From Synergistaceae bacterium (lineage in GTDB: Bacteria; Synergistota; Synergistia; Synergistales; Aminobacteriaceae): a stretch of DNA of 38,897 nucleotides. The stretch covers positions 1 through 38,897 of the forward strand of contig JAAYLU010000041.1 of NCBI GenBank assembly GCA_012521675.1, written 5' to 3'. Below, in pieces: positions 38,558-38,897 of the stretch. Each line of letters begins with the position of its first letter. Within the stretch, counting starts at the first letter, position 1. The notes beneath the pieces are model-generated. The model did not search any database, was not told where the DNA came from, and saw only the letters and a list, made by a program, of their open reading frames with translations. A program made the position numbers and the translations under genes.

Positions 38558-38586
38558 AAAAAAACCGCTCTCCGGGAGGAGAGCGG
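38558..38586 (-). terminator. Rho-independent terminator after tRNA-Ala
   Basis: A perfect 9-bp stem (CCGCTCTCC / GGAGAGCGG) with a TCCC loop is followed on the minus strand by seven T residues. It lies about 21 bases past the tRNA-Ala CCA end, so the rRNA transcript appears to stop here without a 23S gene. Confidence 0.94.
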
Positions 38587-38607
38587 AAAAGACTCCGCTG
38601 GAATAAC

Positions 38608-38682
38608 TGGTGGAGATGATCGGATTCGAACCGACGACTTCCTGCGTGCAAGGCAGGCGCTCTCCCGCTGAGCTACATCCCC
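38608..38682 (-). tRNA. tRNA-Ala (anticodon TGC)
   Basis: A 75-nt cloverleaf: acceptor stem GGGGATG / CATCTCC, anticodon stem CCTGC / GCAGG with loop CTTGCAC (anticodon TGC), T-loop TTCGAAT, and an encoded CCA end. It follows tRNA-Ile by 22 bases, the standard pair of a 16S-23S spacer. Confidence 0.98.
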
Positions 38683-38704
38683 GTTTTTGCTGCATTGGTG
38701 AAAA

Positions 38705-38781
38705 TGGTGGGCCGAGGGGGATTCGAACCTCCGACCTCGCGGTTATCAGCCGCGTGCTCTAACCAACTGAGCTATCGGCCC
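38705..38781 (-). tRNA. tRNA-Ile (anticodon GAT)
   Basis: A 77-nt cloverleaf: 5' GGGCCGATAGCTCAG, anticodon stem CGCGG / CCGCG with loop CTGATAA (anticodon GAT), T-loop TTCGAAT, and an encoded CCA end. It is separated from the 16S 3' end by only about 60 bases. Confidence 0.98.
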
Positions 38782-38841
38782 TTTGAATAACACAGTGCGC
38801 AGATCCGAGCGAGTGTTTGTCTCTGTTCCTTCGTTCCTTAG

Positions 38842-38897
38842 AAAGGAGGTGATCCAGCCGCACCTTCCGGTACGGCTACCTTGTTACGACTTCACCC
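38842..38897 (-). rRNA. rrs: 16S ribosomal RNA, 3' end (partial)
   Basis: The complement reads GGGTGAAGTCGTAACAAGG at the window edge and ends GGATCACCTCCTTT, the universal 3' terminus with the anti-Shine-Dalgarno CCTCC. Only the last 56 or so bases are in view; the exact mature end is uncertain by a few bases. The gene continues beyond the right edge. Confidence 0.97.

Follow-up and report, generated by a model that had tools for sequence, protein, structure and literature searches.

A Synergistota contig carries a 16S rRNA-tRNA-Ile-tRNA-Ala-terminator unit without 23S in front of pilB, probably a truncated rRNA operon

The window analyzed here is an entire contig of 38,897 bases (C41) from G000, a draft Synergistota MAG of 121 contigs that is 97.6% complete. 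Read along the minus strand, it runs from the 3' end of a 16S rRNA gene through tRNA-Ile(GAU), tRNA-Ala(UGC), and an intrinsic terminator into pilB (Table 1). Only 56 nt of the 16S gene fall within the window, its 5' side being cut by the contig end at 38897. The terminator stem lies 21 nt beyond tRNA-Ala and comprises 9 bp, 7 of them G-C, with a loop of 4 and a T7 run behind it. The 58-nt stretch examined for this terminator folds at −20.2 kcal/mol, compared with −11.4 ± 2.3 kcal/mol for shuffled sequences (z = −3.9; 0 of 200 shuffles equaled it). pilB starts at 38479, 128 nt after tRNA-Ala, and neither 23S nor 5S is present in these 128 nt or elsewhere in the contig. The original prediction for this DNA had described a 16S-tRNA-Ile-tRNA-Ala-terminator arrangement without 23S, in which an intrinsic terminator follows about 20 bases beyond tRNA-Ala and pilB comes next; all of these features are confirmed, with the absence of 23S holding at the level of the locus.

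Table 1. Features at the 16S-proximal end of the window
Feature	Position	Strand	Evidence or remark
16S rRNA 3' end, including the anti-Shine-Dalgarno	38842-38897	minus	Rfam RF00177, 59 bits, model positions 1478-1533
Spacer between 16S and tRNA-Ile, 60 nt	38782-38841	minus	between called genes
tRNA-Ile(GAU)	38705-38781	minus	ARAGORN; Rfam, 72.6 bits
tRNA-Ala(UGC)	38608-38682	minus	ARAGORN; Rfam, 71.9 bits
Proposed deletion junction; relatives have 23S and 5S about here	38587-38607	minus	operons or 5S before pilB in relatives
Intrinsic terminator	38558-38586	minus	stem 38565-38586, then T7 at 38558-38564
pilB, type IV pilus assembly ATPase	36809-38479	minus	Pfam T2SSE and MshEN

The draft as a whole sets the limits of what the window can tell. 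We scanned all assembled contigs of G000 and found no 23S, no 5S, and no further 16S, so the lack of 23S is a finding on the window locus and not on the genome. The overlap between two other contigs of the draft, C44 and C66, is exactly 141 nt, so the assembly is probably a k-mer graph with k = 141; the left end of the window overlaps no other G000 contig and hence gives no clue to k. Between tRNA-Ala and the terminator, the junction sequence is unique and free of N. Neither tRNA-Ile(GAU) nor tRNA-Ala(UGC) has a second copy in the G000 assembly, the weaker matches being tRNA-Ala(CGC) and tRNA-Lys.

Downstream of the junction, pilB belongs to a type IV pilus cluster (26738-38479) that includes a second T2SSE ATPase, a pilC-like gene, four proteins with an N-methylation motif, and PilY1-like and PilM-like proteins. 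We compared its neighborhood with that of PilB relatives drawn from 84,980 species genomes. In three same-genus drafts (L005, L006, and L082; PilB 78-80% identical), a 5S gene stands directly upstream of pilB; in L019 (DFE_SYN), pilB follows a 16S-23S-5S operon that is complete but without tRNAs, and in G013 a tRNA-less operon precedes pilB. The pilB leader of the window can be aligned with the leaders of the three same-genus drafts over an interval that begins at a TATNAT element and ends at the ribosome-binding site, indicating that pilB retains its ancestral leader and that the difference lies in what precedes it. A pilB promoter had also been predicted just after the terminator; a consensus scan yielded none on the minus strand, yet the leader is homologous in these same-genus relatives. 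At least three 5S contexts occur in G004 and two in G002, showing that rRNA operons are multiple in the genus of the window. None of the same-genus genomes displays the window-type truncation. Seen across relatives, then, the predicted arrangement is borne out in part: the 23S-less unit recurs, as described below, whereas pilB in three same-genus drafts is preceded by 5S. A separate feature of L023, from Acetomicrobium hydrogeniformans, is a c-di-GMP-II riboswitch (9670-9759) just upstream of pilB, which suggests that the pilus genes there may be under c-di-GMP control.

To survey rRNA operons across Synergistota, we scanned the stretches around 16S copies for 16S, 23S, 5S, tRNAs, and pilB. 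Among the full-length 16S copies examined, 23S comes next in all but one, which belongs to G021. Where a genome has several operons, the Ile-Ala pair usually resides in one of them only. pilB lies closely behind this Ile-Ala operon in seven well-assembled genomes (G182, G036, G034, G173, G175, G025, and G026) and 4.6 kb beyond it in G123; it was not found near the Ile-Ala operon in the stretches scanned of G136, G137, G108, and G118. Set against these operons, the window shares with the canonical Synergistota 16S-tRNA-Ile-tRNA-Ala-23S-5S operon the gene order, the strand, and the same-strand pilB downstream but lacks the intervening 23S and 5S and has a terminator right behind tRNA-Ala. It thus matches the pilB-side tRNA operon minus 23S and 5S. 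Across the genomes in which the Ile-Ala pair could be placed, it sits in a complete operon in 17, in a 23S-less half-operon in 6 (window included), and free of rRNA in 6 to 8. Complete tRNA operons are also found in families f1 and f10 (G034, G036, G033, and G037-G039; G182). Some operons, in f6 and in G021, carry an extra tRNA-Ile(GAU) behind 5S (G113, G108, G118, G110, G109, and G021).

Several candidates were removed from this survey. A 16S-Ile-Ala-23S-5S contig of a same-genus MAG (G003:C12, L151) was discarded as a probable contaminant, its 16S being 77% identical to Synergistota 16S; G179:C44, at 72% in 23S, was set aside as another probable contaminant, and G179:C42 was left uncounted, its 23S differing strongly from that of C23. 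Tandem tRNA matches at 69-70% identity were rejected as Ile-Ala pairs because they are Val-Asp pairs. Partial 16S pieces, either truncated copies or contig-end pieces, occur at G114:C1:920420-921272 and on G035:C3, G070:C13, and G184:C36, and the 23S gene on G179:C23 (L219) has an insertion of ≈300 nt near position 1975.

The 16S-Ile-Ala-terminator unit recurs in five further genomes, which belong to three other families (G021, G179, G006, G007, and G008), and in all five a terminator follows tRNA-Ala. The clearest instance is G021, an assembly of 7 contigs that is 99% complete, in which a full-length 16S-Ile-Ala-terminator unit lies well inside a 1.02-Mb contig, in mid-contig (C7:677571), with no 23S in the following 9 kb. 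Of 1510 16S positions, 5-7 distinguish this unit from the three linked copies, compared with 3-5 among the linked copies. The 300 bases upstream are only 33-40% identical to those of the linked copies, compared with 67-85% among the linked copies themselves. A leader/spacer stem is predicted for this unit at −50.1 kcal/mol (shuffles, −28.8 ± 3.7 kcal/mol, 0 of 300 as low), as would be expected for 16S processing. At the start of another G021 contig (C4, first 4.3 kb), there are 23S pieces in both orientations; they are probably an assembly artifact, although an unlinked 23S may be present there.

In the remaining four genomes, the 16S tail-Ile-Ala-terminator unit lies at a contig end (G179:C29, G006:C9, G007:C17, and G008:C1). 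In G006 and G008, a second contig starts with the same 16S tail and runs into 23S and 5S. The piece common to the half-operon contig and the linked contig is exactly 77 nt long in both G006 and G008, and 75 nt long in G179. It is made up of the 16S tail and a few spacer bases, which is the trace left by a k-mer assembler when one 16S has two continuations. Each of these three genomes therefore has two or more 16S contexts, of which one leads into 23S and another does not, and linked 16S-23S(-5S) operons coexist with the half-operon in G021, G006, G008, and G179. The f11 half-operons, from three genera (G006, G007, and G008), have a common downstream gene with a frame starting MRLDKFLK, a putative S4-like gene considered the same on visual inspection of the reading frame; its presence in all three genera indicates what appears to be a lasting arrangement. 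The original prediction of a settled arrangement rather than random breakage gains from this recurrence, in that the unit looks real and can be settled. Because no pilB adjoins the half-operons of other families in the stretches examined, these are parallels and not the same locus as the window. Kinship labels place f1, f4, and f10 in one order and f11 in another, and f1 and f10 include genomes with complete tRNA operons as well; judged from these labels, several independent losses of 23S-5S in Synergistota are likely.

The Ile-Ala pair also occurs without rRNA in the stretches read from f9 (G176 and G177) and f3 (G015, G018, G019, and G020); in the f3 genomes G016 and G017, its surroundings are truncated, either at a contig end or at the limit of the stretch read. 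Elsewhere in its genome, G176 carries a complete rRNA operon without tRNAs.

We favor, with a probability of roughly 70%, the explanation that the window holds a truncated rRNA operon, from which 23S-5S was deleted while the tRNAs were kept, in a mixed genome that also has complete operons left unassembled. The ancestor would have been a Synergistota 16S-tRNA-Ile-tRNA-Ala-23S-5S operon upstream of pilB, from which the segment with 23S and 5S, lying between tRNA-Ala and the terminator on the pilB side, would have been deleted. A 16S promoter outside the contig would then give rise to a short transcript with 16S, tRNA-Ile, and tRNA-Ala that stops at the terminator, and the 16S upstream of the contig end would presumably be full length. 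Complete tRNA-less operons, the presence of which in G000 we infer by analogy with relatives, would supply 23S-5S, so that the loss would be tolerated. The sole assembled Ile-Ala pair would be indispensable, such that the promoter and tRNA part of the operon would be retained, a probable selective reason for the direction of the loss. The pattern looks like recurrent erosion of operons around indispensable tRNA genes, not a genome in which all rRNA genes are split.

Two alternatives deserve weighing. In the first, all 23S-5S genes lie apart from 16S throughout the genome of the window species, and the only rRNA locus assembled in G000 is indeed a 16S without 23S. Such genome-wide unlinking is nevertheless unlikely, as linkage to 23S was seen for nearly all of the full-length 16S genes checked across the phylum, four genomes with the half-operon have linked operons beside it, and 5S precedes pilB in same-genus genomes; for the same reasons, the original notion, if taken to mean that rRNA genes are split throughout the genome, is not supported. 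The second is that the assembler passed over 23S-5S when it connected tRNA-Ala to the terminator, or that it merged two strains. Metagenome assemblies are fragmented and often break at rRNA repeats, this contig ends in 16S, and the junction is absent from all same-genus genomes. We nevertheless consider an artifact improbable: the exact C44/C66 overlap suggests that the assembly used a k-mer graph with k = 141, the junction is unique sequence free of N with a good terminator, both of its sides come from one ancestral neighborhood, and the same architecture appears in other assemblies, in one of them mid-contig. That the 16S is a mere leftover tail on what is really a tRNA-Ile/tRNA-Ala transcription unit, as the short 16S piece in view and the rRNA-free pairs of f3 and f9 might suggest, is very hard to credit, given that the 16S of the comparable G021 unit is full length and almost identical to the other copies and that a contig break within conserved 16S is what a repeated or shared gene typically produces.

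A truncated tRNA-bearing operon is also readily compared with known arrangements. According to its main text, which makes no mention of Synergistetes or Synergistota, PMC7761764 classes complete genomes as linked, mixed, or unlinked, with 270 of 15,521 being mixed. In the window, no 23S lies within 1500 bp of the 16S, one of the criteria for mixed genomes, and pilB and the other type IV pilus genes come next. The relatives with the half-operon fit the mixed class, having a 16S apart from 23S while their other operons are linked, and the window genome is probably mixed as well. The window unit differs from this class in keeping the spacer tRNA pair and its own terminator, and linked operons are absent from the window genome assembly. 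Genome-wide unlinked rRNA genes (Brewer 2020, as cited in PMC8178347) share with the window a 16S without downstream 23S but are contradicted in the relatives with the half-operon. Text searches of the papers covered here returned no report of the half-operon arrangement in Synergistota. A bolder proposal, which we regard as possible but doubtful, is that Synergistota have repeatedly cut the tRNA-bearing operon to a lasting 16S-Ile-Ala-terminator unit selected as an extra source of 16S, with more 16S than 23S genes and the 30S/50S balance maintained otherwise.

If the truncation is confirmed, Synergistota would present an erosion series leading from the full tRNA operon through the half-operon to the free tRNA pair, and would show how spacer tRNA genes can anchor a portion of an rRNA operon. 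The half-operons would also provide natural examples of 16S and 23S genes present in different numbers, together with a warning that long 16S-23S amplicons would miss the 16S copies that they contain.
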